A DNA stretch of 18,698 bases from Deltaproteobacteria bacterium RIFOXYA12_FULL_61_11 (GTDB lineage: Bacteria; Bdellovibrionota_F; JAHFAK01; YA12-FULL-61-11): assembly GCA_001799195.1 (NCBI GenBank), contig MGSU01000016.1:2722-21419 (forward strand), given 5' to 3'. Both the position numbers and the translations under genes were made by a program. Within the stretch, counting starts at the first letter, position 1. Each line of letters starts with the position of its first letter. The notes below the pieces were generated by a model that was not told the DNA's origin, did not search any database, and saw only the letters and a list, made by a program, of their open reading frames with translations. Positions 2-16,024 of this stretch are shown here, piece by piece.

Positions 2-511
2 GTGCTCGAATGCTCGGTTCCCCATCGTCAGATCACGATCGGTCTGCACGCCAAGCTGGCACGGGAGGAGCACAACCTTCCCCGAGGCGGCCATGACTAT
101 GGTTTCGAATTCCTGGACCTCTCCCCCGAGAGCTTCGAGACCCTGCTCACCTATCGGCACGATCTCGAGGCCAACCTGAACTTCCTCGGTCCGGAGAGCG
201 CGCGAGAACTCCACCTCAACGTCACCTCCAACTATCGGTGTTTCGACATTTTCTACAACAGGGAGTACAGCGACTTAGCCCAGGGGGTGATCACCTTCCG
301 TACCACCCTCGATCTCAGCGCGAGCGAGCGGGTTCGCCTCAATTTCCCCGGTGGCCAGCGCCGGGAATATCGCTGCCGTTTGCTCGAGCGATTGCCGGGT
401 GAAGGCATTGAGGCCGGCTATCGTCTTCAGCTCGAAGCCTTTTCGGAAGAGGACCAGCGCCTGATCGATGTCTTGATGGCCGAGATGCTCGAACGTTCCC
501 TGGCCGAGTGA
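2..511 (+). CDS. C-terminal part of a possible PilZ-like protein (5' truncated)
   Basis: The reading frame is open from the left edge, so the true start is probably outside the window; the GTG at position 2 need not be the start. The 169 visible residues contain two stretches that resemble the end of a PilZ beta-barrel. The first runs through GFEFLDLSPESFETLL. The second runs from VRLNFPGG to GYRLQLEAFSEEDQRLID, followed by a short helix. This alternation of beta strands, a glycine-aromatic turn and a terminal helix led by acidic and glutamine residues is typical of PilZ tails, and PilZ domains often bind cyclic di-GMP. The RxxxR and D/NxSxxG binding motifs are not visible, so nucleotide binding is not supported. 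The stop lies 11 bp from the convergent stop of the acyltransferase gene. The PilZ call is tentative; that this is a coding region is more secure. Confidence 0.5.
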   Translation: MLECSVPHRQITIGLHAKLAREEHNLPRGGHDYGFEFLDLSPESFETLLTYRHDLEANLNFLGPESARELHLNVTSNYRCFDIFYNREYSDLAQGVITFRTTLDLSASERVRLNFPGGQRREYRCRLLERLPGEGIEAGYRLQLEAFSEEDQRLIDVLMAEMLERSLAE

Positions 512-522
512 GGCTTGGGAAT

Positions 523-1401
523 TTATCTCTGCTGCTCGATCTTACTCAACAAGCTCGAGAGGACCGTGCCCGGACCGAGTTCGAAGAAGCGTGGCTCCGG
601 TTGTTCGAGCAAGTAGCGCATACTCTGGAGCCAGCGAACCGGCTTGCCGAGTTGTTCGGCGAGCAGGTGCGAGGTTTTGTCTGGTTCGTAGGGACGAGCG
701 GTGACATTGGCCACGACTGACAGGTTCGGACGGGTAAAACTGAATTGTTCGAGGAACGTACGGAACTCGGTTTGAGCCTCGAGCATGTAGCGCGAATGGA
801 AGGCCGCGCTGACCTTGAGCGGCCAAAAGGTCTGTGCTCCACCGGCAAGGAAGTGCGGTTTTGCCGCGAGGATGTCCTGGGTCGGCCCTGAGATCACGGT
901 CTGTCGCGGAGCATTGAAGTTGGCCAGATCCAACGTGTGTAGCCCTTGCTCCTCGAGGATCGCAGCGACTTGTTCGGCGGTCAGGCCGATGACCGCCGCC
1001 ATGCCGCCGCCCGTTGCCCTGCCCATCAATTCCCCGCGCTTCTTGACCAGTCGTAGACCGGTGAGGAAGTCAAAGGCGCCTGCTGCCAGGAGAGCATTGT
1101 ATTCTCCGAGGCTATGACCTGCGACGAAATCGGGGAGGCGGTCGTCCTCCTCGATCCGGGCGAGATACGCCATCGCATTCACCACGTACAGGGCAGGTTG
1201 GGTATAGTGGGTCAGGTCGAGGTGCCGTCCGGGGTCTTGCAAACACAGTTCTCGGATCGAGTAACCGAGAACGTCGTCCGCTTCTTGTTCCAGATCGGGG
1301 AAGCGGTCGAACAGGTCGGACCCCATACCGACTTTCTGGGATCCCTGACCGGGAAAAAGATGAATAGTAGTCACCACCTGCCAACGCCTCCCCGTGTTCA
1401 T
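523..1401 (-). CDS. Discrete malonyl-CoA acyltransferase, trans-AT PKS type (FabD superfamily)
   Basis: This 292-residue protein would transfer malonyl units from CoA to acyl carrier domains. It has the N-terminal GQGSQ motif at residues 18-22, the nucleophile elbow GHSLGE with Ser97, a conserved arginine in KKRGELMG (Arg122), and the FHS motif with His202. A phenylalanine before the active-site histidine is the usual sign of malonyl rather than methylmalonyl specificity. The stretches YTQPALYVVNA, GHSLGEYNALLAAGAF and LVKKRGELMG closely match stand-alone trans-acting acyltransferases of PksC/BaeC type, as I recall them, more than housekeeping FabD. No fabH, fabG, acpP or fabF neighbours are present, as expected for a PKS-linked copy. 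With a C-ACP-TE terminus at the other end of the window, it probably loads a trans-AT assembly line. The ATG at 1401 has only a weak AGAGGG ribosome site, and a GTG start a few codons later is possible. Housekeeping FabD is the alternative. Confidence 0.88.
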   Translation of the reverse strand: MNTGRRWQVVTTIHLFPGQGSQKVGMGSDLFDRFPDLEQEADDVLGYSIRELCLQDPGRHLDLTHYTQPALYVVNAMAYLARIEEDDRLPDFVAGHSLGEYNALLAAGAFDFLTGLRLVKKRGELMGRATGGGMAAVIGLTAEQVAAILEEQGLHTLDLANFNAPRQTVISGPTQDILAAKPHFLAGGAQTFWPLKVSAAFHSRYMLEAQTEFRTFLEQFSFTRPNLSVVANVTARPYEPDKTSHLLAEQLGKPVRWLQSMRYLLEQPEPRFFELGPGTVLSSLLSKIEQQR

Positions 1402-1473: not shown

Positions 1474-1502
1474 TTGACAAGGTGGAAGCCCCACCGTACA
1501 GG
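1474..1502 (+). promoter_or_regulatory. Possible promoter before the TolC-like gene
   Basis: A perfect -35 hexamer TTGACA lies at 1474-1479. Seventeen bases later is a weak -10 candidate TACAGG at 1497-1502, with only three consensus matches. The spacer holds an inverted repeat, GGTGG-AAGCC-CCACC at 1481-1495, which could be an operator for a repressor or activator. The implied leader is about 55-60 nt to the ATG at 1567. The rest of the divergent 1402-1566 gap shows no convincing minus-strand promoter for the acyltransferase. The weak -10 keeps this call low. Confidence 0.27.
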
Positions 1503-1566
1503 TTCGCAAGGCCTGTGTGGGAGCAAGGCCGCGATTCTTGAAGGGCCGGACCTGGAACAGGACAGG

Positions 1567-3177
1567 ATGATGAAGCACCTCCGAGGAAGCCGAGAGAGCC
1601 GGACCGCTGGATGGTTCTGCCTCCTCTTCCTCTGGGGGCTGTCCCTGTCTGCACTGGAAGGACCGGGCTTCCCCGAGCGGCTCACCCTCGACGACTACCT
1701 GGCTCGTAGCCGGAAGCTGCAAAGCCTGATGCGTCGGCAGGAATTGGTCCGGAACGCTCGGCGAGAAGACCGAGCAGAGCAACGTGCCCACTCGCTTCCG
1801 GAATACCTGTTGGAAACCTCGGTGAGCAGCACCTCCATGGTGTATCCAAACAATCTGCTCGGGCTCAGTCACCTCCACACGGCCAGGATCGGTGCGAGCC
1901 GGGCGCAGCTCCTTCCCTCGACCGGCGGGCAGCTCTCGTTCGGCGTCGACTACCAGTTCTCGAACTTCGGTTATGCACCGTTGCTCGAAGCCTTGACCAC
2001 GGTTCCTGCCGCGGCTCCTGCCGGGGGATGGTACCTCGAAGGGGCCAAGGCCCAGGCTGCAGCGCCCACGGCAGCCCTAGGTGGGACCGAACTCTATGAA
2101 TACGGTTATCGTCCGGGGGTTTTCCTGAAACTGAACCAGCCCTTGCTGGGTAGTCCCGGCAGGGTTCGCCATCAACTCCCTCTGGAAGTGTTGGAACTGG
2201 AACAAGATCTGTTGCGGCTGCGCCAATTGGAAGAAACCGAGTCGGCCCTGCTCGGGTTGCTCCAGACCTATTATGGCTATGCGCTGTTGCAGCGGCAAGC
2301 CGGTTTGATCGAAAGGATGATCGCCAAGGCTCAACAATTGCGCAACACGACGAAGAATGCCGCTGCCTTCACCGTTGGCAACAAGGTCGATCTTTATTCC
2401 GTCGAAGACATGGTCCTCCGGTTTACCGCCGAACTCGCGGCGGTCGATGCCCAACTCGCCATCGTGCGTGCCTCTCTTGCAGCGGACCTCTTCGAAAATC
2501 CTCCTGCGGACCCACCGAAATTACTGCCGACAGAGTTACTGGATCCGGATTCCGACCCACAAGGTGCGGAGTCCGGGACAGCCTCGCTGCGACAAGTCGA
2601 AATACTGAGCCTGCTCGGAAAGCAATTCCGGCTCCGTCGTCAAGAGTTCGAATTGCAGGGAGGGTCTAGCCTGGACCTCCTGGGTTCGGCCGAACTGCAG
2701 GACCTCGAATCCTCGGCCGCGAAAGCTTGGCGAGTGTTCGAGTATCCACAGCTCTTCCTGGGGTTGCAGTACCGTCCCGAAGGACGAGTCGAACTCAACA
2801 GGGCTCGCGCCACCAGATTTCGTTGGGAGGAACAGGCCCTGGCAACAGAGGAAGAACAGGTGCAAAGAGAACTCAACGCATCGATCGCCGAGCATCGCGG
2901 TCGATTGCAGTGGCATATCGCCAATCTGGCCCTGTACGACCGACGGCTCGAACTGGCGGGTAAGCTCGGTTCGCAGGTGCAACAACGCTACAGCAAGGGT
3001 CTCGCACCGATCGGACCGGTCATCGACAACGAACTTCGTACCATCGAACTCGAGTTGCGCCGGGTGCAGGAGTTATCCTCCTATCACCTGACCAAGGCCT
3101 CGCTGGAAGCCCTGCTCGACCGTTTGCTCGACCGCCTGCCAACCCCCATGCCTGACGGCCGTGGGCCCGATTCGTGA
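1567..3177 (+). CDS. TolC-like outer-membrane efflux protein
   Basis: This 536-residue protein would form the outer-membrane channel of a tripartite exporter. ATG-ATG at 1567/1570 is preferred over an upstream TTG frame extension because it gives a clean signal peptide. That peptide has a basic n-region (KHLRGSRESR), the hydrophobic core WFCLLFLWGLSLSA and a likely cleavage near SLSA-LEG. GGACAGG immediately precedes the ATG. The mature N-terminus (RLTLDDYLARSRKLQSLM) and the C-terminal segment around QQRYSKGLAPIGPVIDNELRTIE, followed by a long heptad-rich helix, fit the two alpha-helical hairpin repeats of the OEP family. It is divergent from the acyltransferase and convergent with rSAM-A (47 bp gap, no strong terminator). 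It could pair with the RND pump encoded at 4775-8140, but no periplasmic adaptor gene is present. The sequence is a divergent family member, so its partner and cargo are inferred. Confidence 0.82.
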   Translation: MMKHLRGSRESRTAGWFCLLFLWGLSLSALEGPGFPERLTLDDYLARSRKLQSLMRRQELVRNARREDRAEQRAHSLPEYLLETSVSSTSMVYPNNLLGLSHLHTARIGASRAQLLPSTGGQLSFGVDYQFSNFGYAPLLEALTTVPAAAPAGGWYLEGAKAQAAAPTAALGGTELYEYGYRPGVFLKLNQPLLGSPGRVRHQLPLEVLELEQDLLRLRQLEETESALLGLLQTYYGYALLQRQAGLIERMIAKAQQLRNTTKNAAAFTVGNKVDLYSVEDMVLRFTAELAAVDAQLAIVRASLAADLFENPPADPPKLLPTELLDPDSDPQGAESGTASLRQVEILSLLGKQFRLRRQEFELQGGSSLDLLGSAELQDLESSAAKAWRVFEYPQLFLGLQYRPEGRVELNRARATRFRWEEQALATEEEQVQRELNASIAEHRGRLQWHIANLALYDRRLELAGKLGSQVQQRYSKGLAPIGPVIDNELRTIELELRRVQELSSYHLTKASLEALLDRLLDRLPTPMPDGRGPDS

Positions 3178-3224
3178 AGCATCTCCGAGAAAGGACGATG
3201 CAGGTAGCGCTCTTCGTCTGATCC

Positions 3225-4667
3225 TCAATACCAGCGCACTGCTCGATATTCGTCGTAGCGTTGCAGCCAGCGGGTGAAGAAGAAGCTGCTGACCAGGCTC
3301 TGGCTGAGGAAACGTCCCCGGCGGTGGGCCAGGAAGCGCGGGGTGAAACGTGCCGGACGCAGGAAGAAGGCCCGTAAGGCGCGGTCGCGGAGGGCGACCA
3401 GCGATTTTCGGTCGAGGTGGTGGGTGTCGGCCAAGGGGTGCAAACAGGTGTAATAGCGATAATTGAAGACCTTGATGAGGCCGGCCTCGAGCATGGTGCG
3501 ACGCATCCGGGTGCCCGGGAAGGGGGTGAGGAAGAACACCGAGGGGACATCGGGGTTGGCCTTCTGCAGGTGCTCGAACTGGAAGAGGAGATCCTCGCGG
3601 GTATCCTCGGGAGCGCCGATGATGAAGGACATCGAGGAATACATCCCGTGTCGGCGCAACACGTCGATGACCTCGATGCTCATCTCCGGCCGAGCCCAGG
3701 TCTTGCCGTAGGCTGCAAGATTCTTCCGGTTGAAGCTCTCAACACCGAGTACGAAGTCGCGGACCCCGGCTTCTTTGAGCAGGGGCAACAAGGAGAGATC
3801 CTGCAGCAAGGAACGCGGTGAGGTAATGATAGTGAAATGAAATTTATTGAATTTGTTAGAAATAATTTCCTCGAGGAGGCGGCGGAAGTGCGCGGGGTCC
3901 TGCAATGGGTTCTCGTCGGTGAGCAGGATCTGTTTCGCCCCGCGCCAGGAGAGTTGTTCGAGGTCTGCGAGGATCCGTTCGAGGGGGAAGGTGCGGTAGC
4001 TGTGTTCGTTGATGGTCTTGGTGCAGCAGAAGGCGCAGTCGTATTGGCATCCGCGTGAGGTCTCGAGGCCGTGGACCGTCAGACCGAACCGCCGCCCGTA
4101 GATTTGTTCGGGGTGGAGGTAGGCTTCTCGCGCCGGAGGAGGCAGGCGGTCGAAGGACGTGTACTCGGCCTTCGGGTTGATCTGCAGTTCGCGACCGCGG
4201 TTGACGATGAGGTTGGGCACGGTGGAGAAGTCGGTGACGCCAGCCTCGAGGGCGTCGCACAAGGCTTTGAGCGCTTGCTCCCCTTCCCCATAGATGGCGA
4301 AATCGATATTGCGCAAGGTGCGTGGGTCCAGAGTACCCTCGACGAGCAGCCCCGAGACGTGCCAGCCGCCGACCACAATAGGGAGGCTGGGATGACGGAA
4401 TTTGAGATAGCGGGCGATATGGGCGGTCGCTTCGAACTGACAGGCCATGCCGTTGAGCGCGACTAGGTCGATCTCGTACCGTTCGACAGCCTCGGCGATC
4501 AATTCCAACAACGAGCGCTTGCGCAGGGCTGCGTCGAGCAGGACCTCATACACCAGACCCTTGTGCGGCGCAATGCTGGCAGCGAGAGAGGTCATGGTGC
4601 TGTTGGCGAGGTAGAAATTCTTCGTGCTGATCTTAATCGGGTTTTCGACGAACAGGACCTTGAGCAT
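3225..4667 (-). CDS. B12-binding radical SAM protein (rSAM-A)
   Basis: This 480-residue enzyme has an N-terminal cobalamin-binding Rossmann-like domain (about residues 1-140), with VVGGWHVSG near residues 98-106 and IYGEGE near 125-130. The radical SAM barrel follows, with the [4Fe-4S] motif at Cys207, Cys211 and Cys214 (sequence GCQYDCAFCC). A basic C-terminal region of about 80 residues comes last. The architecture matches the BchE/HpnP/HpnJ class, whose members methylate or cyclise unactivated carbons. The cobalamin-ligating DxHxxG motif is absent, as in several known members. The ATG at 4667 is chosen because MLKVLFVENP aligns with the other three paralogues and GGAGGA lies upstream, although the 13-nt spacing is long. 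The open frame continues upstream to 5147 but overlaps the RND gene there. The gene follows the RND gene by 107 bp on the same strand and is probably cotranscribed. The substrate is unknown. Confidence 0.87.
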   Translation of the reverse strand: MLKVLFVENPIKISTKNFYLANSTMTSLAASIAPHKGLVYEVLLDAALRKRSLLELIAEAVERYEIDLVALNGMACQFEATAHIARYLKFRHPSLPIVVGGWHVSGLLVEGTLDPRTLRNIDFAIYGEGEQALKALCDALEAGVTDFSTVPNLIVNRGRELQINPKAEYTSFDRLPPPAREAYLHPEQIYGRRFGLTVHGLETSRGCQYDCAFCCTKTINEHSYRTFPLERILADLEQLSWRGAKQILLTDENPLQDPAHFRRLLEEIISNKFNKFHFTIITSPRSLLQDLSLLPLLKEAGVRDFVLGVESFNRKNLAAYGKTWARPEMSIEVIDVLRRHGMYSSMSFIIGAPEDTREDLLFQFEHLQKANPDVPSVFFLTPFPGTRMRRTMLEAGLIKVFNYRYYTCLHPLADTHHLDRKSLVALRDRALRAFFLRPARFTPRFLAHRRGRFLSQSLVSSFFFTRWLQRYDEYRAVRWY

Positions 4668-4774
4668 GATGGTGTTTTCTTCCTCCAGGACTTCTCGTGG
4701 ACGATCGAGATGATTGCACACCCTAGCCCGCTGGTTGTGGCATGTCGAGCGGGAAAGGAGCCTCGGAAGGATCC

Positions 4775-7700
4775 TCAGCGGCGGAGTTTTGGTAGTAACT
4801 TGGTCCGGTCGGAGTCCTTGGGGATAGCCTGAGGTGGGTCGGTTGGGGGATGCTTGCCTCGGGCCGGGCGGGACTTGGTTGGATCGATCTCGGTGAGGTC
4901 GATCAGGTCTTCGTCCTCGAGGTCGGGTGAGGGGTCGGAAGGTAGGGGAGAGTTCGTCCTGGAAGGAGGACGCGCAGAATCGCCCCCGGTCATCCGGCGG
5001 AAGGTCACCCCGGTGACCTCGGCCAGGGGTTCTCCGATCCTGCGCCGGAACAGGCAACTCAGGTCGTGGTAGGCCCCGTAGAGCGCGGGCGTGAAGAAGA
5101 GGGTCACCAGGGTTGCGAAGAACAAACCACTGCCCACGGCCAAGCACATCGGCAGGATGACGAAGTCCTTCCCTCCGATTTCGAGAATAGTCGGGAGCAT
5201 GCCCGCGACCGTGGTTACGGTGGTGAGGACCACGGCACGCACCCTGGTGCTGGAAACCTCAGCCAGCCTCTCTGCGAGGTTGGGCACCGGTCGCCCGGGG
5301 GGGAGCTTGTTGCGCAGGGCGTCAATCATGACGATGGCATCGTTGACCACGATGCCACTCAGTCCGACGATGCCCATCATCCCGAACATGGAAAGTGGTA
5401 TACCTTTAAGGAGGAAACCGTAGATCACCCCCACGAGGCCGAAGGGTATGATACTGGAGATGAGCAAGGGTATGAAAAAGCTGTCGAAGAGCAGTACCAT
5501 GATGGTATAGATCAAAAGAATTGCAACCAACCCTATGATTTGCATCGACCCCATGAGTTTCTGCTGCTCCGCGATCTCCCCCTCGAAGAGAATCTGCAGA
5601 TCTGGATGATCCTCACGGAGTTGCGCGAAGCGCTCGAGCAGATGTTTTTTAGCTAGCAATGGATTGAGCAGATCGAGATCCAACTCGAAACCGACCGTGG
5701 AGCAGGGATCGCCATTGTAGTGGTGCAGGTCCTCGCCTCCTCGTTGGGGTTCGAACGAAATGAGGTGTTTGAGTCTGATGAGTTGGCCCAGGTCGTTCAG
5801 GATGACCGCGTCGTCGAGTCGAGTGTAATCATCGCGCAAGGGACGATCCATCAAGAGCCTGACGCCGATACTCTCGCCGCCCTCGCGGATGGTGGTGACA
5901 ATGTCTCCCATGTAGATCGCGCGGACCAGATGAGCGATGTGGCTGCTCGTCAGGCCGAAGCGCGAGAGATTTCCCTCGTCGAGCACGATGCCGATCTGCT
6001 GTTTGCCGCTGTGGGTGTCGGTGACATGATATTTATAGCCTTTGCGGTTCTCGAGGACCGTGGTGAGGTCCCCGATTACGGCGGTGCGTTCCTCCAACGT
6101 CCCTCCGATAACCCTGACGTTGAGGGACATACCGAAGTCGGGACCGAGGTTCTGGTCTTTGAGATAGAGCAAGGGGAACATGCCCCCGGTTTTGAATGGT
6201 TCGAGGAGCTCCTCGACCCTGGCTACGAGGAAGGGCGTGGAATGCTCGCGGGCATGGGGTTCCTTGAGGTGGACCTTGATGATGGCCCAGTTGTCGCGAC
6301 GGCTGCCGACCTTGCCGAAGGCATCCCGGTCGTGGTGTCCGATCTTGGTGGTAAAAGACCGCAGTGCTTTGTATTTACTATCGAATCCAAGAAGAGCCTG
6401 CTCGATCAGAGCCACCTTCTCGGTCGTAGCGTCGAGGGAATCTCCGAGGTCGGTCTCGACGATGATATCGAAGTTCTCGAGGATCTCCCGCGGGTTGAAG
6501 ACTACCTCGAGGCGTTGGTAACCGATCCAGAGGCTGGTTCCGAGGATACCGAGGAAGCCGAGTAGGGCGAGGTATCGGTGCCGGAGCACGAAAGGAACGA
6601 GCGCTTCATAGGGGCGCTGGATCAGAAACCCAAAAAGCACTTCCTGGAAGGACTTTCCGGGACGTAGCCGGGAGTGGGCTAGATGCGAGGTGAGGATGAA
6701 GAAGGCCTCGAACAGGGAAATCAAGAGTGCGAGGGTGATCACGATCGGGATGGGCCTGAACATGGAGCCCACGGCGCCGGGAACGAACAGGTACGGGAGG
6801 AAGGCAATGATGGTGGTCGAGATGGAGGCCGTGACCGGGAGGAGCAGCTCTTTGAGCGTGAGTTTGGCGGACTCGATCCCGCGGAGACCTGCCTTGCGAT
6901 GCGTATAGAGGTGCTCGGCGATGATCATGCTGTCGTCCGCGAGCATGCCGACGACGATGATGAGCGCGAGTAGTACCATCATATTGATGGTCAGATCGAA
7001 GGCCGGCAAGAGGGCGAACAGGGCCGCTAACGTGAAGAGGAAGCCGGTCGAGGTCCACCAGGCAGTCGTGAAGTTGAGGAACAAGGCCAGGGTGAGAAAG
7101 AGCAGCAGGAAGCCGATGGCCGCGTTCGTGGCCGTTGCTCCGAGGTTCTTCTTGAGGTTTGAGGACAGGTCGAAGAGGTGGTGTAGGTCGAGGTCCTCCG
7201 GGAGGTCTTTTTCGAAGGCCGAGACGATTTCCTTCAGCTTGTCCACGGTACGGATGACATCCGCGTCTTTCGACTTGGTAATGATCAGGGAGATGCCCGT
7301 ACGGCCGTTGAGGCGTAGCCGTATGTCTTCGGGGCTCCACTGGTAGCTCACCGTGCCGAGATCGGCAAGCCGAACATGGCGCCCTTGGAGATTGGAACGG
7401 ACGATCAGGCGCTCAATATCTCGTCGGTCTTTGAGATTCCCGAGAGTGTAGATATCGACTTTATCCTTGTAGGCGCTGGTAGTTCCACCTCCGATCCTGA
7501 CATTATTGAGCTGGATAGCGGCGGTGACCTGGGCTAAGGAGAGCTGGTACTCCAATAGTTTCTGGCTCTCGAGCTGTATGTGGATCTCACGCTCGCGCGA
7601 GCCCTCTACGCCGATGTATCCGATGCGGTCGATGTAGCGCAGGCGTTGCTTGAGGGCTTCGGCCGTGCGTTCGAGAGCTTCGCGATCTTCGCTCTCCGAG

Positions 7701-8140
7701 GTCAATCCTACCTCGTAGATCGGCAGGTTGTCGGTCGAGAACTCCTTGAGCATAGGCCGTCCCGACTCGCGCGGCAGATCCCGGAGGTTGTCAAGGATGC
7801 CTCGAATCTCGATGATTTTCTTGTCTTTAGCTGCGGGGGATAGGTCAACTGGGAAAAAGACCGTCACGAGCGAGAGCCCCTCGGTCGACGTGGAGACGAT
7901 GCGGTCGATTCGCTCGAGTTCGCGGAGCCGTTCTTCGATAGGGTTGGTGAGGGATTTTTCCACGTCCTTCTGGGTTGCCCCAGGATATGCGGTCACGATT
8001 TGCGCGAAGTCGAATTGCAGATGTCCCATGATCTCACGGCGGGAGATCGAAAGAGTATAGAAACCGTAGAGCAGGACGGCAAAGAAGACGAGATTGGTCA
8101 GTTTCTTGTTGTGCAGGAACAGCTCGAGGAACGTGTTCAT
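4775..8140 (-). CDS. RND-family efflux transporter (AcrB/HAE-like)
   Basis: This is an inner-membrane proton-driven exporter of 1121 residues from the ATG at 8140; a GTG lies directly before it at 8143. Visible family features are TM1 near residues 16-35, the porter segment starting AYPGATQKDVEKSLTNPIEE, TM4 with the proton-relay pair Asp402-Asp403 in GMLADDSMIIAEH, and TM10 with GIVVNDAIVMID (Asn933, Asp934). In place of the AcrB TM10 lysine it has the Asn-Asp form common in other RND branches. The protein is longer than the usual 1030-1050 residues because of a soluble tail after about residue 1040, rich in Pro, Ser and Asp/Glu (LEDEDLIDLTEIDPT). No membrane-fusion protein is encoded nearby, so that partner must be elsewhere or the complex is unusual. 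The gene is divergent from rSAM-B and upstream of rSAM-A on the same strand, suggesting export of the tailored product. Confidence 0.93.
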   Translation of the reverse strand: MNTFLELFLHNKKLTNLVFFAVLLYGFYTLSISRREIMGHLQFDFAQIVTAYPGATQKDVEKSLTNPIEERLRELERIDRIVSTSTEGLSLVTVFFPVDLSPAAKDKKIIEIRGILDNLRDLPRESGRPMLKEFSTDNLPIYEVGLTSESEDREALERTAEALKQRLRYIDRIGYIGVEGSREREIHIQLESQKLLEYQLSLAQVTAAIQLNNVRIGGGTTSAYKDKVDIYTLGNLKDRRDIERLIVRSNLQGRHVRLADLGTVSYQWSPEDIRLRLNGRTGISLIITKSKDADVIRTVDKLKEIVSAFEKDLPEDLDLHHLFDLSSNLKKNLGATATNAAIGFLLLFLTLALFLNFTTAWWTSTGFLFTLAALFALLPAFDLTINMMVLLALIIVVGMLADDSMIIAEHLYTHRKAGLRGIESAKLTLKELLLPVTASISTTIIAFLPYLFVPGAVGSMFRPIPIVITLALLISLFEAFFILTSHLAHSRLRPGKSFQEVLFGFLIQRPYEALVPFVLRHRYLALLGFLGILGTSLWIGYQRLEVVFNPREILENFDIIVETDLGDSLDATTEKVALIEQALLGFDSKYKALRSFTTKIGHHDRDAFGKVGSRRDNWAIIKVHLKEPHAREHSTPFLVARVEELLEPFKTGGMFPLLYLKDQNLGPDFGMSLNVRVIGGTLEERTAVIGDLTTVLENRKGYKYHVTDTHSGKQQIGIVLDEGNLSRFGLTSSHIAHLVRAIYMGDIVTTIREGGESIGVRLLMDRPLRDDYTRLDDAVILNDLGQLIRLKHLISFEPQRGGEDLHHYNGDPCSTVGFELDLDLLNPLLAKKHLLERFAQLREDHPDLQILFEGEIAEQQKLMGSMQIIGLVAILLIYTIMVLLFDSFFIPLLISSIIPFGLVGVIYGFLLKGIPLSMFGMMGIVGLSGIVVNDAIVMIDALRNKLPPGRPVPNLAERLAEVSSTRVRAVVLTTVTTVAGMLPTILEIGGKDFVILPMCLAVGSGLFFATLVTLFFTPALYGAYHDLSCLFRRRIGEPLAEVTGVTFRRMTGGDSARPPSRTNSPLPSDPSPDLEDEDLIDLTEIDPTKSRPARGKHPPTDPPQAIPKDSDRTKLLPKLRR

Positions 8141-8328
8141 CACCGGGCACCGCGGGAGAGGGGAACCCTGCCGCCTGGTCCCCTTAGGTCTTCCAGTAGT
8201 TCGGACCTGGGGCTAACAACGGCCAGAGGGGAGTACCACACTATGGTGGGTAAGGTCCACCTTGGAGGGCGAGGCCACACACACGGCCTTTCCCTCAAAG
8301 ACCCACTTCTTGGTGTTTCATTGCTTCC

Positions 8329-8357
8329 TTGCACCAAGGGGAGGGCTCACCTATACT
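8329..8357 (+). promoter_or_regulatory. Sigma70-like promoter for the rSAM-B operon
   Basis: TTGCAC at 8329-8334 and TATACT at 8352-8357 are separated by exactly 17 bp. This is the best promoter match I found in the window. Transcription would begin near 8364, giving a leader of about 54 nt before the rSAM-B start. The site lies in the 277-bp divergent gap between the RND gene and rSAM-B. I saw no equally good minus-strand promoter for the RND gene in that gap. Confidence 0.6.
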
Positions 8358-8417
8358 CGGTCCCCTTCCACCCCCTCCCCATGCGGGGTACGTGGTTCTT
8401 CGATGAGGTTATTGAGG

Positions 8418-9908
8418 ATGAAAGTTCTGTTTTTACTCAGCCCGGTACGCGAATTACCCCAGGTATTGGAGTTGGCGATACCGACCCTGGTCGGCAACCT
8501 CGGCCCGCACGAAGGAGTCATGCTCGATCTGTATTACTCGGACAAACCGGTGTTCAAGGCGGTTCGAGAGGCGGTCGAGACGGTCCGTCCCCAGATAATC
8601 GCTCTTGGCGGGATGTCTTGTCAGTTCAGCGTGACCCGGCGTATCGCCGAATTCCTCCGAACGAATTATCCCTCGATCCTGCTTGTCGCAGGCGGTTGGC
8701 ACGTGTCGGGTTGCTTGGCCGATGGGTTGGAGAACCCGGGTAGTTTCCTGCCCTTCGATGTTTTGATCTATGGTGAGGGCGAGCATCGCTTGCGTGAGGT
8801 CTGTGACCTGGTTGCAGCGGGCGATAGGGACTTCTCGAAGGTTCCGGGCATAGCCTTCCGGCAAGGTGAGACTTTTCAACGAACCGCTGAACGTGGTTTG
8901 CAGGAACTCTCGACCTTGGCCGTGCCGTCGCGGCAAGCCTATTATAAGGAGGGCGGACAGCGCTTTTTCAAACGGAGAGCGTATTTCATCCATTGCGTCG
9001 AGACCACCCGCGGTTGTCTCTATAATTGTTCCTTCTGTTGCTCACCGGCCATCTACGGCAGCAAGTTGCGAACCTTTCCGATCGAACGCACCCTGGCTGA
9101 TCTTACGCAGTTGCGCGAGCTCGGAGCCCGCCACATTCTGTTCACCGATGAGAATATGACCAACGATCTTGAACACTTCCAAAAGCTGTGGTTGGAGATC
9201 GAGCAGGCCCGAGTGCATCAGATGCACTTCGCCCTGTACACCTCGACAAGGCAATTAGTACGGCATCCTGAAATCATCGATGTGCTCGAACGGTTCGGGA
9301 TTATCCCCTTGATCGGCATCGAGAGCTTCACAAAAGCTAAGTTGGCGTATTTCAATAAACAATGGATCTCCGGGGACACGAATCTCGAAGCCTTGGAGCT
9401 GCTGCGCAAGCGGCGCGTCTATCCCTTGGTCTCCTTCATCCTCGGCAGTCCCGAGGATCAGGTCGACGACCTCCGCCTCCCCTTCCGGACCCTTGCCTCG
9501 ATCGATCTCAACGTTATGATCTCCCCGGCGGTGCTCACCCCTTTCCCAGGGACAAGGTTGCGCAAACAGGTACTCGAGGAGGGGTTGGTCGAAGATCTCG
9601 AGTATGACCATTACAACGGGATCACCCCGGTGCTGAGGACCCGCTACCTGAGCAGGAAAGAGGTTTCCCGGCTGCGCAACGAAGAGCTGGTCAGATACTA
9701 CTTTCGGCCGCGGTACCTCAAGAACCTTGCCCGGGAAGTCTGGCGCCGGCGACTTCCCCTGGTGCTCATCCAGTTCCTCCAGATGTTCACCCCGATCTAT
9801 TACCTCAACAGCGATTTCAGCGTGAGGCTCGATCGGCGTTGGCTGCGCCTCCTGTTGAAACTCATTCGCACACCTACGAAGCGCATCGACCAGGTCTCCT
9901 GGAAGTAG
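8418..9908 (+). CDS. B12-binding radical SAM protein (rSAM-B)
   Basis: This 496-residue paralogue of rSAM-A has a cobalamin-binding domain over about residues 1-140 (VAGGWHVSG near 90-98, IYGEGE near 117-122). The radical SAM cluster is at Cys200, Cys204 and Cys207 (GCLYNCSFCC), followed by a basic, amphipathic C-terminus (WRRRLPLVLIQFLQMF and RRWLRLLLKLI) that may touch the membrane. It shares with rSAM-A the extra cysteine right after the third cluster cysteine. The segment VPGIAFRQGE after the B12 domain is typical of class B-like enzymes. The ATG at 8418 is preferred: it aligns with paralogue starts and has TGAGG 9 nt upstream. An in-frame ATG at 8403 would add five residues. It is the first gene after the 8329-8357 promoter and heads a five-gene plus-strand run. 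A C-methyltransferase or radical cyclase role is likely; the substrate is unknown. Confidence 0.88.
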   Translation: MKVLFLLSPVRELPQVLELAIPTLVGNLGPHEGVMLDLYYSDKPVFKAVREAVETVRPQIIALGGMSCQFSVTRRIAEFLRTNYPSILLVAGGWHVSGCLADGLENPGSFLPFDVLIYGEGEHRLREVCDLVAAGDRDFSKVPGIAFRQGETFQRTAERGLQELSTLAVPSRQAYYKEGGQRFFKRRAYFIHCVETTRGCLYNCSFCCSPAIYGSKLRTFPIERTLADLTQLRELGARHILFTDENMTNDLEHFQKLWLEIEQARVHQMHFALYTSTRQLVRHPEIIDVLERFGIIPLIGIESFTKAKLAYFNKQWISGDTNLEALELLRKRRVYPLVSFILGSPEDQVDDLRLPFRTLASIDLNVMISPAVLTPFPGTRLRKQVLEEGLVEDLEYDHYNGITPVLRTRYLSRKEVSRLRNEELVRYYFRPRYLKNLAREVWRRRLPLVLIQFLQMFTPIYYLNSDFSVRLDRRWLRLLLKLIRTPTKRIDQVSWK

Positions 9909-10022
9909 TACCAGTTGTTTGCTCGAGAACGCTGCCTAGGATCAAGGCGAAGGATTTCTTGCCTTTTGCCGACCTATCGTACAACATACGCGGCCATTTG
10001 ACGGGCTGGGGAAGTTCACGTC

Positions 10023-10601
10023 GTGCATCAACTCCAGGACAAGCTTGATGAGGCGACCCTGCGGGGGATGCATCTCCAGGAGCGGAGCGTCCATTTTCTC
10101 GAAGGTCATCTCCAGCGCTGGTTCGACAATGACCCCTCCTTCGAGGATCAACAGGTCGTACTCGATAAGGTCGCGCGGGATCTCCTGGCTGTGTATTCCT
10201 ATCGTTGCACCTCGTCCTTGGCCAGGATCAAAGAAATATTCAGTTCTCCCAGCCGGGTGATCGACCATTGTCACAGCAATCTCCTCCTGGGGAAGGGCGA
10301 GTTCACGTATGATCCGGCTCGCAAGCTCTACCGGTTCGGTTACAAGATTCTCAACTACCGCATCGAAGCAGACCTGGAACTCGGGTTGCACGAGGTTTCG
10401 CCCGAAGAGTTCTATCTCATCCTCAATATTCGAGATCGCAATCTCGTCAAGAACGACGTTTATTATTTCAAAGCATTGGGAGAATCCGCCACGAGGGGGA
10501 TCTTCATTAGCATTTTTCCGACTTTCTCCTTCCCCTTACCCGATTTCCTGTTGCGGAAGCTGATCGAGAAGCTCTGCCAGAATTTCTTCGCCAGCCTGTG
10601 A
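10023..10601 (+). CDS. Hypothetical protein, possibly START/SRPBCC-like
   Basis: This is a 192-residue protein of uncertain family. The GTG at 10023 is the first usable start after an in-frame stop at 9999-10001, and GGGGAAG lies a few bases upstream. Residues about 70-190 alternate predicted strands (FTYDPARKLYRFGYKI, LNYRIEADLELGLHEV, EFYLILNIRD, GIFISIFPTFSF) and end in an amphipathic helix introduced by PLPDFLLRKLIEKL. That order, with a proline-led C-terminal helix, resembles the helix-grip fold of START/SRPBCC lipid- and polyketide-binding proteins. No signal peptide or membrane segment is seen. It sits 114 bp after rSAM-B and 39 bp before rSAM-C on the same strand, so it is probably cotranscribed and might hold a hydrophobic substrate for them. 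The fold call rests on pattern only. An overlapping minus-strand frame (9942-10391) is less likely to be real because this frame shows the high third-position GC of its neighbours. Confidence 0.62.
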   Translation: MHQLQDKLDEATLRGMHLQERSVHFLEGHLQRWFDNDPSFEDQQVVLDKVARDLLAVYSYRCTSSLARIKEIFSSPSRVIDHCHSNLLLGKGEFTYDPARKLYRFGYKILNYRIEADLELGLHEVSPEEFYLILNIRDRNLVKNDVYYFKALGESATRGIFISIFPTFSFPLPDFLLRKLIEKLCQNFFASL

Positions 10602-10640
10602 AGCGCTTCGGACACCATCCATGAGGAGCAACTGCCGGCC

Positions 10641-12089
10641 ATGAACGTTCTGCTGGTCGTCAATCCGCGCAAACCGGTCTTTCCTCCGGTCGTGGATATG
10701 TCCTACCTCTCTCTCGTTTCCAACCTCGGCAGCCACCGCGGGAGGATCTATGATCTGTTCATGGACCTCTTGGTGACCGGCAGATCAGTCAGTGACCTGC
10801 TGAGGGAGGCCCTGGTCCGGTTTGCACCGCGGGTGGTGGCGATCGGGGGCATGACGTACCAATTCGCGGCCGCTCAGCGTATCGCCGCCTTCGTCAAAGC
10901 CGAATTTCCCCAGGTGGTCACCGTTCTCGGAGGCTGGCACGTCACCGGTGCGGTCGAAGAGGGGCCGCCCGGAGAAGAATTTGGGGACTTCGATTTCCTG
11001 ATCTACGGCCAGGGCGAAACAACCTTGACCGAGTTGTGCGATGCCCTGGAAGGTGGGGCTGAGGATTTCTCGGGCATCCCCGGACTGTTCTTCCGCGCCG
11101 AGGGGACCTTCGTCAAGAATGCCTGGCGTACCCCGAACGACCTCGACACTCTGGCCTTGCCCCAACGCGATGCCTACTTGAATTTCGACCGAATGGTCCC
11201 CATTCTGCGCCGGTTCTTCACCTCTCACCAGGGTGAGGCCATCCGTGGATGTCCCCATGCCTGTGCGTTCTGCTCCAACGCCTTGATGAACAGGGGGGTC
11301 GTCAGGAAGTCTCCGGTCGAGCGCGTGATCGAGGATATGAAGTTCGTCAAGTTCCTCGGCGGGAGGAGTTTTGCCTTTTCCGACGAGAATACGACCCAGG
11401 ACACCGACTATTTCGAGCAGCTCTGCAATGCAATTATTGCAAATAGACTTAACGATTTAAATCTCATGACCCTGGTGTCCACCATTTCGGTGGTACGCCG
11501 CCCCGAGCTCATGAAGCTCGCCAAGGAGGCGGGGTTTACCGTCTTCGGCGTGGGCGCTGAGAGCCTCTCGAAGAAGAACCTCGCCTTGTTCAACAAGAGC
11601 TGGAGTGCACCGGAGCTTCACCGCCAAGCCGTCGAGCTCATCAATGCTGCAGGTATTCTGCACGGCTCCTTCCTTATCCTCGGGGCTCCTGATGACGACG
11701 CGGCCCTGATCAAACACCAGTTCAGGGCCATGCAACGCATGCGCACGAACCCCTTCCCGCTCTTCCTGACGCCGCTTCCCGGCACTCCTTTCAAGCGCCA
11801 GGCCGAACAATCCGGTTTGATCCGCGTGCGCGATTACCGGCTCTACGATTGTCTGACCCCGATCATGGCCACGCGCTATCTCGAGCCGGAGCAGCTCGAA
11901 GGGTTGCGCACCCGGGAGCTTCTCCGCTTCTATTTGACCTCTAATGTATTCAAGAGATTGATGCCCGTTCGCGGGGATTATTCGAACCTGTTGGCCCTGC
12001 GCTACCTGTCCGCCTACCTCCCTCTGTATGCCCGCGCCTTCATGCGCAGTGAGGGACATCAGGCGATGTACGACTGGTTTCGTTGGTGA
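10641..12089 (+). CDS. B12-binding radical SAM protein (rSAM-C)
   Basis: This 482-residue enzyme is a close paralogue of the next gene. It has an N-terminal cobalamin-binding domain (VLGGWHVTG near residues 95-103, IYGQGE near 121-126), a radical SAM cluster at Cys204, Cys208 and Cys211 (GCPHACAFC), and the C-terminal region LRTRELLRFYLTSN typical of this enzyme class. It ends in the aromatic hexapeptide YDWFRW, shared with rSAM-D. Like its paralogues it lacks DxHxxG. The ATG at 10641 follows GAGGAG with about 12 nt of spacing. It lies 39 bp after the START-like gene and 40 bp before rSAM-D, in an apparent operon. An internal AT-rich patch with two palindromes (11425-11468) stands out from the GC-rich gene. 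The likely reaction is methylation or rearrangement at an unactivated carbon; the substrate is unknown. Confidence 0.88.
   Translation: MNVLLVVNPRKPVFPPVVDMSYLSLVSNLGSHRGRIYDLFMDLLVTGRSVSDLLREALVRFAPRVVAIGGMTYQFAAAQRIAAFVKAEFPQVVTVLGGWHVTGAVEEGPPGEEFGDFDFLIYGQGETTLTELCDALEGGAEDFSGIPGLFFRAEGTFVKNAWRTPNDLDTLALPQRDAYLNFDRMVPILRRFFTSHQGEAIRGCPHACAFCSNALMNRGVVRKSPVERVIEDMKFVKFLGGRSFAFSDENTTQDTDYFEQLCNAIIANRLNDLNLMTLVSTISVVRRPELMKLAKEAGFTVFGVGAESLSKKNLALFNKSWSAPELHRQAVELINAAGILHGSFLILGAPDDDAALIKHQFRAMQRMRTNPFPLFLTPLPGTPFKRQAEQSGLIRVRDYRLYDCLTPIMATRYLEPEQLEGLRTRELLRFYLTSNVFKRLMPVRGDYSNLLALRYLSAYLPLYARAFMRSEGHQAMYDWFRW
10651..10676 (+). repeat. 26-bp exact repeat, copy 1 (5' end of rSAM-C)
   Basis: This segment is identical to 12140-12165 and encodes the shared LLVVNPRKP / MLVVNPRKP start of the two tandem radical SAM genes. 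Codon-level identity over 26 bp, in genes that otherwise differ at many synonymous sites, points to tandem duplication or local gene conversion. Confidence 0.85.
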
Positions 12090-12129
12090 TATCGGAACCT
12101 CGACTACGTCGAGAAGGAGTGCAAGTACA

Positions 12130-13575
12130 ATGAGGGTAATGCTGGTCGTCAATCCGCGCAAACCGTCATTCCCTCCCTATCTCGACATGTCTCTCCTGTC
12201 CCTGGTCTCGAACCTGGGAGAGCACCAGGCCACGATCTATGACCTGTTCATGGACCTGCTCGCCACCCGACGATCCGCCCTTGCCCTTCTGAGGGAAGCG
12301 ATCCAAGACTTCCGTCCCGATCTGGTTGCCCTGGGGGCCATGTCCTACCAGTTTGCCGCAGCTCAACGTATTGCAACGTTCGTCAAGGCAGCGTTCCCGA
12401 GGGTGAAAACCGTGCTCGGAGGTTGGCATCTCACTGGTGTTGTTGAGGAAGGGTTGCCCGACGAGGATTATCGCGCCTTCGACTTCCTGATCTACGGTCA
12501 GGGGGAGGCAACCCTTACCGAACTGTGCGATGCGCTGGACGGCGAGGGTGAGCTCTCGACCATTCCGGGCCTACTTTTCAGGGACGGTGATCGTTTCGTA
12601 CGCAATGCCTGGCGAAAACCCGAGGCCGGAGCCGTGCTGCATCCACCGAAACGCGATGCCTATCTCAACCTCGAGCGCATGCGGCCGATCATGCGCCGCT
12701 ATTTCACCTCCCATCAGGGCGAGGCCACCCGGGGCTGTCCCCATGCTTGCAGCTATTGCACCAATTTGGTCATGAACCGGGGGGTGATCCTGCGTTTCCC
12801 GGTCGAGCGGGTCATCGAGGACATGAAAGCCGTACAGCGCCTTGGAGGGCGTTCCTACATTTTCACCGACGAGAACGTTCTCGAGGATCCCGACTACTTC
12901 GAACGCTTGTGTCTCGCGATCCTGGACCACAAGCTCAACGGTATGCATCTCATGGCCGGTGTATCCACCGAATCCGTGGTTCGTCGACCTGAGTTGATCC
13001 CCTTAGCCAGGGACGCGGGATTCCTCGCGGTCGGTGTGGGCGCGGAGAGCGTCCTGAGCAAAAACTTGGTTTTCTTCAATAAGTCCTGGAGCGCACCGGA
13101 CCTGCACCGGCGCACCGTGGAGATCCTCAACCAAGCCGGTCTCATCCACGTCTCCTTCCTGATCATCGGCGTACCCGAAGATGATGAGCAAAGGATTCGC
13201 TACCAGTTCCAGATTATGCAACAGCTCGGCACCACGCCCTTCCCCTTCTTCCTCACCCCTTTGCCGGGCACACGTCTCAAACGCCAGGTAGAGGGGTTGG
13301 GTCTGATCAGGATCAAAGACCTGAGTTATTACGACACTCAGACCGCGGTCATGGATACTCTCCACCTCAGTATTGATCAGCTCGAGGCCATCCGGCGTAA
13401 GGAGCTCTTGCGCTACTACCTGACCTCCGGCTTCCTGGCAAGGCTGTTCCCCAGAGGAGGGAAGCTCTCCTTCGGCTTGGCCCTGCGCTACCTCGCGGGC
13501 TACTTGCCGTTGCATGCTCGATCCCTCCTGCATCGTCAGGGAGAGCGATCGGTGTACGACTGGTTCCGTTGGTGA
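12130..13575 (+). CDS. B12-binding radical SAM protein (rSAM-D)
   Basis: This 481-residue tandem paralogue of rSAM-C has the cobalamin-binding domain with VLGGWHLTG near residues 95-103 and IYGQGE near 121-126. Its cluster is at Cys203, Cys207 and Cys210 (GCPHACSYC), with tyrosine in place of the usual phenylalanine before the third cysteine. It ends in YDWFRW, as rSAM-C does. The ATG at 12130 is chosen over upstream in-frame codons because AAGGAG lies 10 nt before it, the N-terminus aligns exactly with rSAM-C, and the longer frame would overlap rSAM-C. The kinase gene starts 16 bp after the stop, so cotranscription is very likely. Two such adjacent copies may act on different carbons of one molecule, or one may have become specialised. 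The substrate is unknown. Confidence 0.88.
   Translation: MRVMLVVNPRKPSFPPYLDMSLLSLVSNLGEHQATIYDLFMDLLATRRSALALLREAIQDFRPDLVALGAMSYQFAAAQRIATFVKAAFPRVKTVLGGWHLTGVVEEGLPDEDYRAFDFLIYGQGEATLTELCDALDGEGELSTIPGLLFRDGDRFVRNAWRKPEAGAVLHPPKRDAYLNLERMRPIMRRYFTSHQGEATRGCPHACSYCTNLVMNRGVILRFPVERVIEDMKAVQRLGGRSYIFTDENVLEDPDYFERLCLAILDHKLNGMHLMAGVSTESVVRRPELIPLARDAGFLAVGVGAESVLSKNLVFFNKSWSAPDLHRRTVEILNQAGLIHVSFLIIGVPEDDEQRIRYQFQIMQQLGTTPFPFFLTPLPGTRLKRQVEGLGLIRIKDLSYYDTQTAVMDTLHLSIDQLEAIRRKELLRYYLTSGFLARLFPRGGKLSFGLALRYLAGYLPLHARSLLHRQGERSVYDWFRW
12140..12165 (+). repeat. 26-bp exact repeat, copy 2 (5' end of rSAM-D)
   Basis: This is the second copy of the 10651-10676 segment, in the same reading frame and the same position relative to the start codon of its gene. 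Confidence 0.85.
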
Positions 13576-13591: not shown

Positions 13592-14902
13592 ATGGCTCAG
13601 GCGATCAAGACCAGTAAATTTTCCCGCTTCATGGCCCTGACCGGGCTCTCGACGCGGGTCTCCACGAACCTCCTGCTGGGCAAAGGCAGGGCTCTCTTCC
13701 AGTCCGGTGAGGCGGCGAAAGAAAGTGAGCGGAGGGGAAATCTCACCAACGCCAAACACATCGTCCATACGCTCGGCGAGCTGAAGGGCTTCGCGATGAA
13801 GGTGGGCCAGATGCTCTCCATCAGCGGTTCGGAGTTTGGCCTTCTTCCCTCCGAGGTGACCGCGGTGCTGGCTCGGCTGCAGACCGACAGTCCCCCCATC
13901 CCTTACGCGGTGGTCGACGAGGTGGTGAGGAACAGTCTTGGAAAGGGTGTTCGCGAATTGTTCGAGGCCTTCGATGAACTGCCCATCTCAGCGGCCTCGC
14001 TCGGACAGGTGTATCGAGCGCGGCTCCGGGGAGGAGCCCAGGTTGCGGTCAAAGTGCAGTATCCAGAGTCGCGAACGATCATCGAGAACGATCTCAAGAA
14101 TATCCGCCGGGTGGTCGGTCTGATCTTCAAGTTGCAGGGCCGCAACCAGGACCGGCAGGCGATCGAAGACCTGCTCGAGGAGTTCCAGACCAAGCTCAGG
14201 GAAGAGGCCGACTATGTCCAGGAGGGACGCAACCTACAGCGCTTCCGCGAGCTCTTCGCGGGGGAAACGTCGATGTATGTGCCCCGCTTCTACCCCGAGT
14301 ACAGCAGCGAGGTGGTGTTGACCACCGAGTTCGTCGAAGGAACCCATCTCCGAGAGTTCATCGAACAGGATGTACCCCAGGCGCTGCGCAACCAGGTCGC
14401 CTCGACCATGTTCGAGCTGTTCCTGCGCCAGCTCTTCACCTTTCGCTTCATTCATGCCGATCCGCACTATGGGAATTTCCTCGTCCGTTATGACGGCCGG
14501 GTGACGTACCTCGATTTCGGCTGCACCAAAGAGCTGTCAGAAGAAGTCGTGGAACATTACAGGAAGGCCATGGTGGCCGCTTTCAACGAGGACTTCGAGG
14601 TCTTCCTCGAGCATATGGTGCGATTGGGTATGCTCGAGCAGTCGAACGAACACCGCGAACTGCAACGCCGCTTCATGGTCGCTCTCGGCAGGCCTTTCGC
14701 CAGGGACGAGGTGTACTCCTTCCGGGTACACACCGATTACAACACCGAGATCTTCAAGGTAATGAAGGAACTGGAGAGCAAGACCAAGATCGTGCTGCCC
14801 AAAGACTTGCTCTTCGTGCAGCGGGTCTTCGGCGGACTGGTCAACCTCTTCCAGAAGCTCGGCGCCGAGGCCAACTGGCACGAGATGTTCCTGCGTTCCT
14901 GA
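13592..14902 (+). CDS. ABC1/AarF/UbiB-family atypical kinase
   Basis: This 436-residue protein-kinase-like member of the ABC1 (ADCK/UbiB) family carries the family-defining KxGQ motif (Lys70-Gln73), the A-rich loop in ISAASLGQVY (about residues 132-141), and the lysine in VAVKVQYP (Lys154). It also has EEADYVQEGRN (about 204-213), the catalytic-loop-like HADPHYGNF (288-296) and the metal-binding DFG at 308-310. All key residues appear intact. Characterised relatives are ATPases that support ubiquinone and other isoprenoid-lipid metabolism, probably by extracting or presenting hydrophobic intermediates. A strong GAGGAGG precedes the ATG by about 4 nt, and the gene starts 16 bp after rSAM-D. 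Being last in a radical-SAM operon suggests it helps handle a lipid-like substrate rather than acting in quinone synthesis. No C-terminal hydrophobic anchor is evident, unlike many UbiB proteins. No clear terminator follows. Confidence 0.93.
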   Translation: MAQAIKTSKFSRFMALTGLSTRVSTNLLLGKGRALFQSGEAAKESERRGNLTNAKHIVHTLGELKGFAMKVGQMLSISGSEFGLLPSEVTAVLARLQTDSPPIPYAVVDEVVRNSLGKGVRELFEAFDELPISAASLGQVYRARLRGGAQVAVKVQYPESRTIIENDLKNIRRVVGLIFKLQGRNQDRQAIEDLLEEFQTKLREEADYVQEGRNLQRFRELFAGETSMYVPRFYPEYSSEVVLTTEFVEGTHLREFIEQDVPQALRNQVASTMFELFLRQLFTFRFIHADPHYGNFLVRYDGRVTYLDFGCTKELSEEVVEHYRKAMVAAFNEDFEVFLEHMVRLGMLEQSNEHRELQRRFMVALGRPFARDEVYSFRVHTDYNTEIFKVMKELESKTKIVLPKDLLFVQRVFGGLVNLFQKLGAEANWHEMFLRS

Positions 14903-15137: not shown

Positions 15138-15683
15138 TTATAGTGTCTCTCGTTCCTCAAACGCAGTCCGCACTGTTGCTATTGGCAAGAACTGTCGCCG
15201 TGGCCACTGGTCTCGGGTAATGGTGACGAAACCATAGCGTGTATAGAAGCGCTCAGCACTTTCATCCTTGGCGTCAACTATGATTCCGGTGCAGCCGAGG
15301 ATCATCGAAGCATCCAGGATGCGTTTCAGGGCATCAAGGAGCAGTAGTTCACCGTATCTTCGGCCCTGAGCGCGCTTGTCGATCGCAAGACGGCCCAGGA
15401 GCGCAACGGGCATCGGGTACTTCGGCAACTTTCCTTCAATCACCTGTGCGACTTTTGCTGTTTCGGCAAGTGCCATGCTCAAGGTGTAATAGCCGAGAAT
15501 CACCGGCAACGACGGGTCATCTTCATTTCGTCGGCGGAAGACATAGGTTCTGCCAATACCAGCAGCTTCATTTGATATGGCGTGTCGAGAAAAGTATTCG
15601 TCGAGTGGGTGTATGCCGCAGGAAAATCCCGCTACCGCATCTCCTGGCTCGATCGTTGACGTAAGAAAGGGGAAGTCGCTCAT
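15138..15683 (-). CDS. GNAT acetyltransferase toxin of a TacT/AtaT-type toxin-antitoxin pair
   Basis: This 181-residue Gcn5-type N-acetyltransferase resembles toxins that acetylate aminoacyl-tRNA. Family features are the N-terminal FSCGIHPLDEYFSRHA (about residues 20-35), the strand pair LGYYTLSM, the acetyl-CoA-binding motif LAIDKRAQGRRYGELLLLDA (QGRRYG at 106-111), and the C-terminal FYTRYGF with the tyrosine usual in this fold. The length and the pairing with an upstream ribbon-helix-helix gene fit the GNAT-RHH toxin-antitoxin class. The start codon overlaps the antitoxin stop by 4 bp (15680-15683), indicating translational coupling. The specific aminoacyl-tRNA target cannot be read from the sequence. 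The module is not obviously part of the biosynthetic cluster and may be a stabilising or horizontally acquired element. Confidence 0.88.
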   Translation of the reverse strand: MSDFPFLTSTIEPGDAVAGFSCGIHPLDEYFSRHAISNEAAGIGRTYVFRRRNEDDPSLPVILGYYTLSMALAETAKVAQVIEGKLPKYPMPVALLGRLAIDKRAQGRRYGELLLLDALKRILDASMILGCTGIIVDAKDESAERFYTRYGFVTITRDQWPRRQFLPIATVRTAFEERETL

Positions 15684-16024
15684 TGCCTCGTGCGTTTGGC
15701 TGCCTCACGCAGCCGTGTATTCGGGGCTGGCGCGGTATTCATGAGTTTTTTCATATCCTCGATTGCGGAATCTGGTAATTCCAGATTCACTGGCCTCTGT
15801 GCCCATTCAAGTGCTGCAAGCGTTGGCGTGGCAAGCTCGCAAGTGGGTTGCAACGTGGAGGGGTCGAGCATGACCAAGCGACGACCGCGCCGTACCTCGA
15901 GAACGGCCTTGACGAAGAGCGCGAGAGCCTCATCGATAAGCTGACTTCTGCTCAACTGAAGCTCGGCCGCCAACTGTACAAGAGCGGTTGCTCGGTTGTC
16001 GGGGATGGTGGCTTCAATGCGCAT
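15680..16024 (-). CDS. Ribbon-helix-helix antitoxin
   Basis: This 114-residue protein would neutralise the GNAT toxin and repress its own operon. Residues 1-45 fit a ribbon-helix-helix DNA-binding domain: a short strand (MRIEATIPD), helix one (ATALVQLAAELQL), a turn (SRSQ) and helix two (LIDEALALFVKAVLEVRRG). The remaining 65 residues, with Pro-rich and charged stretches ending in LREAAKRTRQ, would be the toxin-binding region, which is often disordered until bound. The ATG at 16024 has GGGAG 7 nt upstream. The gene comes first in the pair and overlaps the toxin start by 4 bp. The palindrome at 16035-16048 just upstream is the probable autoregulatory operator. Confidence 0.82.
   Translation of the reverse strand: MRIEATIPDNRATALVQLAAELQLSRSQLIDEALALFVKAVLEVRRGRRLVMLDPSTLQPTCELATPTLAALEWAQRPVNLELPDSAIEDMKKLMNTAPAPNTRLREAAKRTRQ

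Follow-up and report, generated by a model that had tools for sequence, protein, structure and literature searches.

The window analysed here, a stretch of 18,698 nucleotides (C16:2722-21419) from a genome of 4.64 Mb that is distributed over 342 contigs and is 87% complete, raises the question as to which pathway might need four B12-binding radical SAM proteins (A–D) encoded side by side, and on what scaffold those proteins would act. A reading of the bare DNA (hereafter the sequence-only reading) had seen in them four specialised copies around one exporter, suggestive of a multi-step radical tailoring pathway. As judged from the genes alone, the best explanation of the locus is that its genes serve tailoring and export within a trans-AT polyketide gene cluster.

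Gene content and organisation of the locus

The features run in the order of Table 1, with a minus-strand pair of genes—a GNAT acetyltransferase and a ribbon-helix-helix (RHH) gene, at 15138-16024, which overlap by 4 bp and are toxin-antitoxin-like—standing between the ABC1 kinase and the PKS. The GC3 of that pair is 0.55-0.60 versus 0.68-0.80 in its neighbours, and the pair may be an insertion that separates D from the PKS. The radical SAM block, at 3225-13575, is enclosed on the same contig by stand-alone acyltransferases (ATs) on one side and by an AT-less type I PKS on the other. Within the block, A follows the RND gene, which it shares a strand with, on the downstream side, and B opens a divergent plus-strand set in which 40 bp separate C from D and 16 bp separate D from the kinase gene, which latter is probably co-transcribed with D.

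Table 1. Features recognised in the window, with positions counted from its first nucleotide.
Feature	Position	Strand	Evidence
FabD-type stand-alone acyltransferase	523..1401	-	TIGR00128 327.9 bits (cut-off 260.9); PF00698 96.7 bits
TolC-like outer membrane efflux protein	1474..3177	+	PF02321 25.0 bits (cut-off 22)
A, B12-binding radical SAM protein, 480 aa	3225..4667	-	PF04055 and PF02310 above cut-off
RND-family efflux permease, 1122 aa	4775..8143	-	PF00873 478 bits
B, B12-binding radical SAM protein, 496 aa	8418..9908	+	PF04055 above cut-off, PF02310 just below
Orphan, 192 aa, between B and C	10023..10601	+	No profile match
C, B12-binding radical SAM protein, 482 aa	10641..12089	+	PF04055 above cut-off, PF02310 just below
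D, B12-binding radical SAM protein, 481 aa	12130..13575	+	PF04055 and PF02310 above cut-off
ABC1/UbiB-like atypical kinase	13592..14902	+	PF03109 225.5 bits; below UbiB and MABP-1 cut-offs
PKS 3' end: condensation-like, ACP, thioesterase	16219..18698	-	End of 4,082-aa ORF

The true start of the TolC-like gene is probably downstream of 1474, and no periplasmic adaptor gene was recognised in the window, though TolC-like and RND genes are both present (1474-8143). The second profile matched by the kinase is that of the macrolide-binding ATPase MABP-1, with a score well under the cut-off. Two PilZ-like genes lie between the two ATs, one at window positions 2-511, with 21.8 bits against a Pfam cut-off of 22.5, the other at C16:1858-2535. 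The orphan between B and C had no match in Pfam, NCBIfam or the PDB, nor any relative among 280 genomes; its single-sequence AlphaFold model, with a pLDDT of 37.5 too poor for use, suggests a succession of helices, strands, and a C-terminal helix.

Domains, motifs, and kinship of the four proteins

The four genes are complete, intact ORFs, each with matches to the radical SAM and the B12-binding domains: PF04055 gave 52-78 bits, far over its cut-off in all four, and PF02310 (cut-off 32.1) gave 35.7 bits in A and 40.0 in D, with B (28.9) and C (31.0) just short. The single layout of 480-496 residues that the sequence-only reading had ascribed to them is thus borne out, as are the motifs that it had listed; GGWH[VL][ST]G and CxxxCx[FY]C are common to A–D, and the first cysteine of the latter, expected near residue 205, is found at residues 200-207. 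The similar basic C-terminus likewise recurs in the net charge of the last 65 residues, which is +11, +11, +5, and +8 in A, B, C, and D, respectively. Assignment to the B12-binding radical SAM proteins is based on the radical SAM domain with its CxxxCxxC and on the N-terminal B12-binding Rossmann domain, the latter indicated by PF02310 (marginally in B and C) and by the fold of C, which matches CysS, TsrM, and OxsB along its whole length; we infer that A–D would bind cobalamin. The best NCBIfam profile for the four is that of BchE (TIGR02026), with 101.9-130.1 bits against a cut-off of 481.35; the scores with HpnR (TIGR04367, 56-95 bits versus 650) and HpnJ (TIGR03471, 47-72 bits versus 577.6) are likewise far under the cut-offs, and A–D belong to none of the curated families tested. 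No HpnP model was among the NCBIfam matches.

The partition into two pairs, A/B and C/D, that had been proposed along with those motifs stands only in part. The motifs do split in that manner, and C/D are a true pair; A/B are not clearly one, because C and D share 62.8% identity versus 37.0% for A and B and 33.9-34.8% for the remaining pairings. The kinship of the four was further examined in a quick tree, computed by maximum likelihood from 74 B12-radical-SAM proteins; these came from this genome (of whose B12-binding matches a part was included), from other genomes, and from reference records comprising BchE, HpnJ, HpnR, and two S. cattleya megaplasmid proteins. A–D formed one clade (SH-aLRT 100), apart from BchE, HpnJ, and HpnR and holding no other B12-radical-SAM protein of this genome sampled in the tree; the C+D pair had a support of 100, and the tree left A and B unresolved beside it. 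Moreover, a profile built from A–D gave 783-811 bits for the four versus 134 for the next highest scorer among the B12-radical-SAM ORFs taken from the genome, so that their grouping is not a matter of chance. We consider that A–D arose by duplication, probably within the cluster.

The genome as a whole contains 135 radical SAM and 48 B12-binding domain matches in its 4.64 Mb, and in a first-look count over 145 genomes its 64 B12-binding candidates were among the highest figures, most of the others having fewer than 30 and a few 35-66. Further groups of at least two nearby B12-binding or radical SAM genes, which are not close relatives of A–D, occur on C316, C336, C73, C279, C124, C119, and C41. 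Since B12-radical-SAM genes are so numerous in this genome and are clustered elsewhere as well, clustering alone is weak evidence of a shared pathway.

Relatives in other genomes

No orthologous set of A–D was present in the genomes searched. Scans of genome contigs with the A–D and C/D profiles, a scan of viral contigs, and a tblastn search of phages yielded no close relative, which negative outcome carries little weight for the contig scans because these rest on short peptide patterns; a tblastn search of plasmids gave only matches of 23-31% identity, such as BchE, HpnR, and HpnJ. The whole-genome searches (98 genomes with D at 1e-60, 290 with the A–D profile, and 4, 245, and 195 in three other phyla, one of these three having run without a positive control) brought up either nothing at all or no more than single-copy sisters and proteins of greater distance, and the one other genome of the window's class had no match to D at 1e-60. 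The closest relatives that these searches found are lone genes belonging to two other phyla, G098/G290 and G054/G352/G320/G500/G501. The sister proteins of G098 and G054 scored 261-264 bits with the A–D profile, the next relative scoring 209. At the threshold applied, each of these genomes has a single sister gene, which lies among unrelated neighbours and with no PKS beside them in the stretches read; in G098 and G290 a gene for an FAD-dependent oxidoreductase comes after the sister gene.

The polyketide synthase context

The PKS that closes the window is encoded by a giant minus-strand gene of 4,082 aa (about C16:18940-31188) with the domains KS, DH, KR, MT, ACP, DH, KS, KR, condensation-like, ACP, and TE, and has an SDR gene upstream. 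Across the radical SAM block from the PKS lie the two stand-alone ATs, at window positions 523-1401 and at C16:771-1736. No PF00698 acyltransferase match was found in the PKS ORFs of C16 or C103, and a genome-wide search with that profile retrieved three ORFs only, all of them stand-alone. The type I PKS-type KS domains of the genome number seven (two on C16, four on C103, one on C44), every one of them in an ORF without an AT match. The C44 piece (C44:20927-28844) consists of a KS at the contig end, a stand-alone AT, an asparagine-synthase-like gene, and a PfaD-type enoylreductase that scores above its cut-off and is a predicted trans-ER. Two other KS matches, on C144 and C307, were rejected as PKS modules since they look like FabF-type single KS proteins.

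There are, then, multi-modular KS proteins with no integrated AT and a stand-alone AT within the same cluster; from the AT-less KS ORFs and the free-standing ATs the system is therefore read as trans-AT. The AT at 523-1401 would probably be a trans-acting AT of this PKS, and it may instead have a housekeeping role because its score exceeds the FabD cut-off. The PKS pieces of C16, C103, and C44 may belong to one cluster. As to the arrangement of four copies around one exporter, the TolC-like and RND genes are indeed interleaved with A–D, and a multi-step tailoring is still the best reading; what the sequence-only reading had missed is the main context, namely the trans-AT PKS enclosing those genes, whose polyketide would be a plausible scaffold for A–D, such as had been absent from the earlier proposal. 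The link between A–D and the PKS is one of position, since the cluster has no known product and the searches yielded no orthologous cluster.

Fold and the residue expected beneath the cobalt

A structure model of C, built from four sequences with a pLDDT of 61.8 and with the cluster-binding loop poorly predicted, matched cobalamin-dependent radical SAM methyltransferases and their relatives over nearly its whole length: CysS (Z 24.0, rmsd 4.1, 414 aligned residues), AprD4 (Z 23.4, rmsd 3.7, 385 aligned), TsrM (Z 21.7), MgmA (21.6), OxsB (20.6), and TokK (17.1). The fold does not fix the reaction, because the methyltransferases are equalled in score by AprD4, which is a diol dehydratase of the radical SAM type; AprD4 shares the fold and is not known to use cobalamin.

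In a profile alignment with TokK and CysS that has no gaps between the lower-face region and the GG motif, the position of TokK Trp76 is occupied by Cys76 in A, Cys68 in B, and Tyr73 in both C and D. The two sister proteins aligned share with A–D the Q[FY] following that residue and differ in having Phe at the position itself instead of Cys or Tyr. Known occupants of the lower axial space are Arg in TsrM, Asn/water in OxsB, and Trp in TokK (PMC8992657), and HgcA is thought to use Cys (PMC13331322). The position was highly variable, with two further Cys in the rest of the set, so that a cysteine there is to be taken as a lead and not as diagnostic.

Proposed role and alternative readings

We propose, with a probability of about 0.55, that A–D are cobalamin-dependent radical SAM enzymes acting in trans on a trans-AT polyketide, at different carbons or steps and mostly as methyltransferases, and that the product is exported by the TolC/RND pair. 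According to this scheme, each protein would hold a [4Fe-4S] cluster through CxxxCxxC and cleave SAM to a 5'-deoxyadenosyl radical, which species would abstract hydrogen at an unactivated carbon in the chain, the latter probably being carrier-bound; the resulting carbon radical would be quenched most often by the methyl of methylcobalamin. The chain might be the growing or the finished polyketide, the four copies would divide different positions or consecutive steps among themselves, with the TolC/RND pair expelling the product; the substrate, the methylation, the division of labour, and the export are all deductions of ours. C-methylation is the likeliest outcome, and ring formation a possible one. 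Methylation is favoured as the commonest chemistry of the family and by solved structures of CysS and TokK that contain pantetheinylated substrates (as named in their PDB titles); those structures offer a precedent for carrier-bound substrates. The methyltransferase domains embedded in the PKS could serve the alpha carbons, the inert carbons being left to the radical enzymes.

That the tailoring of the polyketide by A–D consists chiefly in radical chemistry other than methylation—ring formation, dehydrogenation, C–C or C–heteroatom bond formation, or rearrangement, as with BchE, ThnL, and OxsB—appears unlikely to us. Non-methyltransferase members of the cobalamin radical SAM family are established (PMC13331322), and the ring-forming BchE gives the top NCBIfam profile for the four, at about 102-130 bits; that score, however, is far under the cut-off of 481. 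Similarly, OxsB and AprD4 are among the best fold matches of the C model, but CysS and TsrM match it as well as or better than most of the non-methyltransferases, and the Cys that A and B have where TokK and CysS have Trp lies at a position too variable in the family to be diagnostic. An assignment of A–D to some pathway unrelated to the PKS, such as that of a lipid, a cofactor, or a cell-envelope compound, with the genes inside the cluster by chance, is in our estimation improbable: PKS parts flank the block on both sides, and within it RND-A and B-C-D-ABC1 form compact same-strand sets. In its favour are the abundance of such genes in this genome, the solitary sister genes elsewhere with no adjoining PKS in the stretches read, and the toxin-antitoxin-like pair, itself unrelated, that sits between D and the PKS. 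As one instance of such a pathway, hopanoid tailoring of the HpnP/HpnJ type is disfavoured, since a search of the genome (87% complete) turned up no squalene-hopene cyclase and A–D fall far under the HpnJ and HpnR cut-offs. We give hardly any credence to A–D being largely redundant duplicates with one function, maintained for dosage; the adjacency and 63% identity of C and D would suit that notion, whereas A, B, and C/D are just 34-37% identical to one another with their motifs intact and differ in the residue expected under the cobalt, Cys in A/B versus Tyr in C/D.

If the proposal of trans-acting, mostly methylating enzymes were correct, the locus would bear on a hard chemistry, namely the radical methylation of unactivated carbons or ring closure at them, and the four diverged copies would constitute a natural series from which to learn what determines regiochemistry, iteration, and the outcome of the reaction in cobalamin-radical-SAM enzymes, with the split between Cys and Tyr under the cobalt as a testable handle on how the lower-face residue tunes the reaction. 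The cluster would then point to an undescribed and unusually decorated product, in a lineage whose class has one other sampled genome. A bolder version, which we hold to be quite doubtful, would make of this product a new polyketide class in which one trans-AT line has a private four-enzyme family (Cys under the cobalt in A/B, Tyr in C/D) that introduces, at inert carbons, several methyl branches or rings; A and B would then use a thiolate-ligated cobalamin such as is presumed for HgcA.

Comparison with known systems

Both the enzyme superfamily and the type of assembly line are already known; for their combination, a trans-AT PKS with cobalamin-dependent radical SAM enzymes, and for the number of four copies we found no description in the open-access papers searched. 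The nearest case is that of the swf operons, which encode a mono-modular PKS/FAS and occur in sponge symbionts and Poribacteria; in these operons SwfC, a B12-binding radical SAM protein and proposed methyltransferase, is encoded beside a type I PKS (PMC3908369); those operons, likened here by description, nevertheless have one radical SAM gene of 585 aa each and a mono-modular PKS with its own AT (PMC3908369).

BchE, HpnR, and HpnJ, from porphyrin and hopanoid tailoring, have the same architecture of B12-binding and radical SAM domains as A–D, but A–D miss each of their curated cut-offs by far and the three are placed outside the A–D clade. The C-methyltransferases CysS (cystobactamids) and TokK/ThnK (carbapenems), which are cobalamin-dependent radical SAM enzymes, act in systems that are not known to be trans-AT PKSs. 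They differ from A–D in an identity of about 13-16% in the structural alignment, in the 620-660 residues of the solved CysS and TokK chains versus about 480, and in the Trp at the lower-face position in place of Cys or Tyr; they nonetheless resemble A–D in domain order and fold, and likewise work within natural product clusters.
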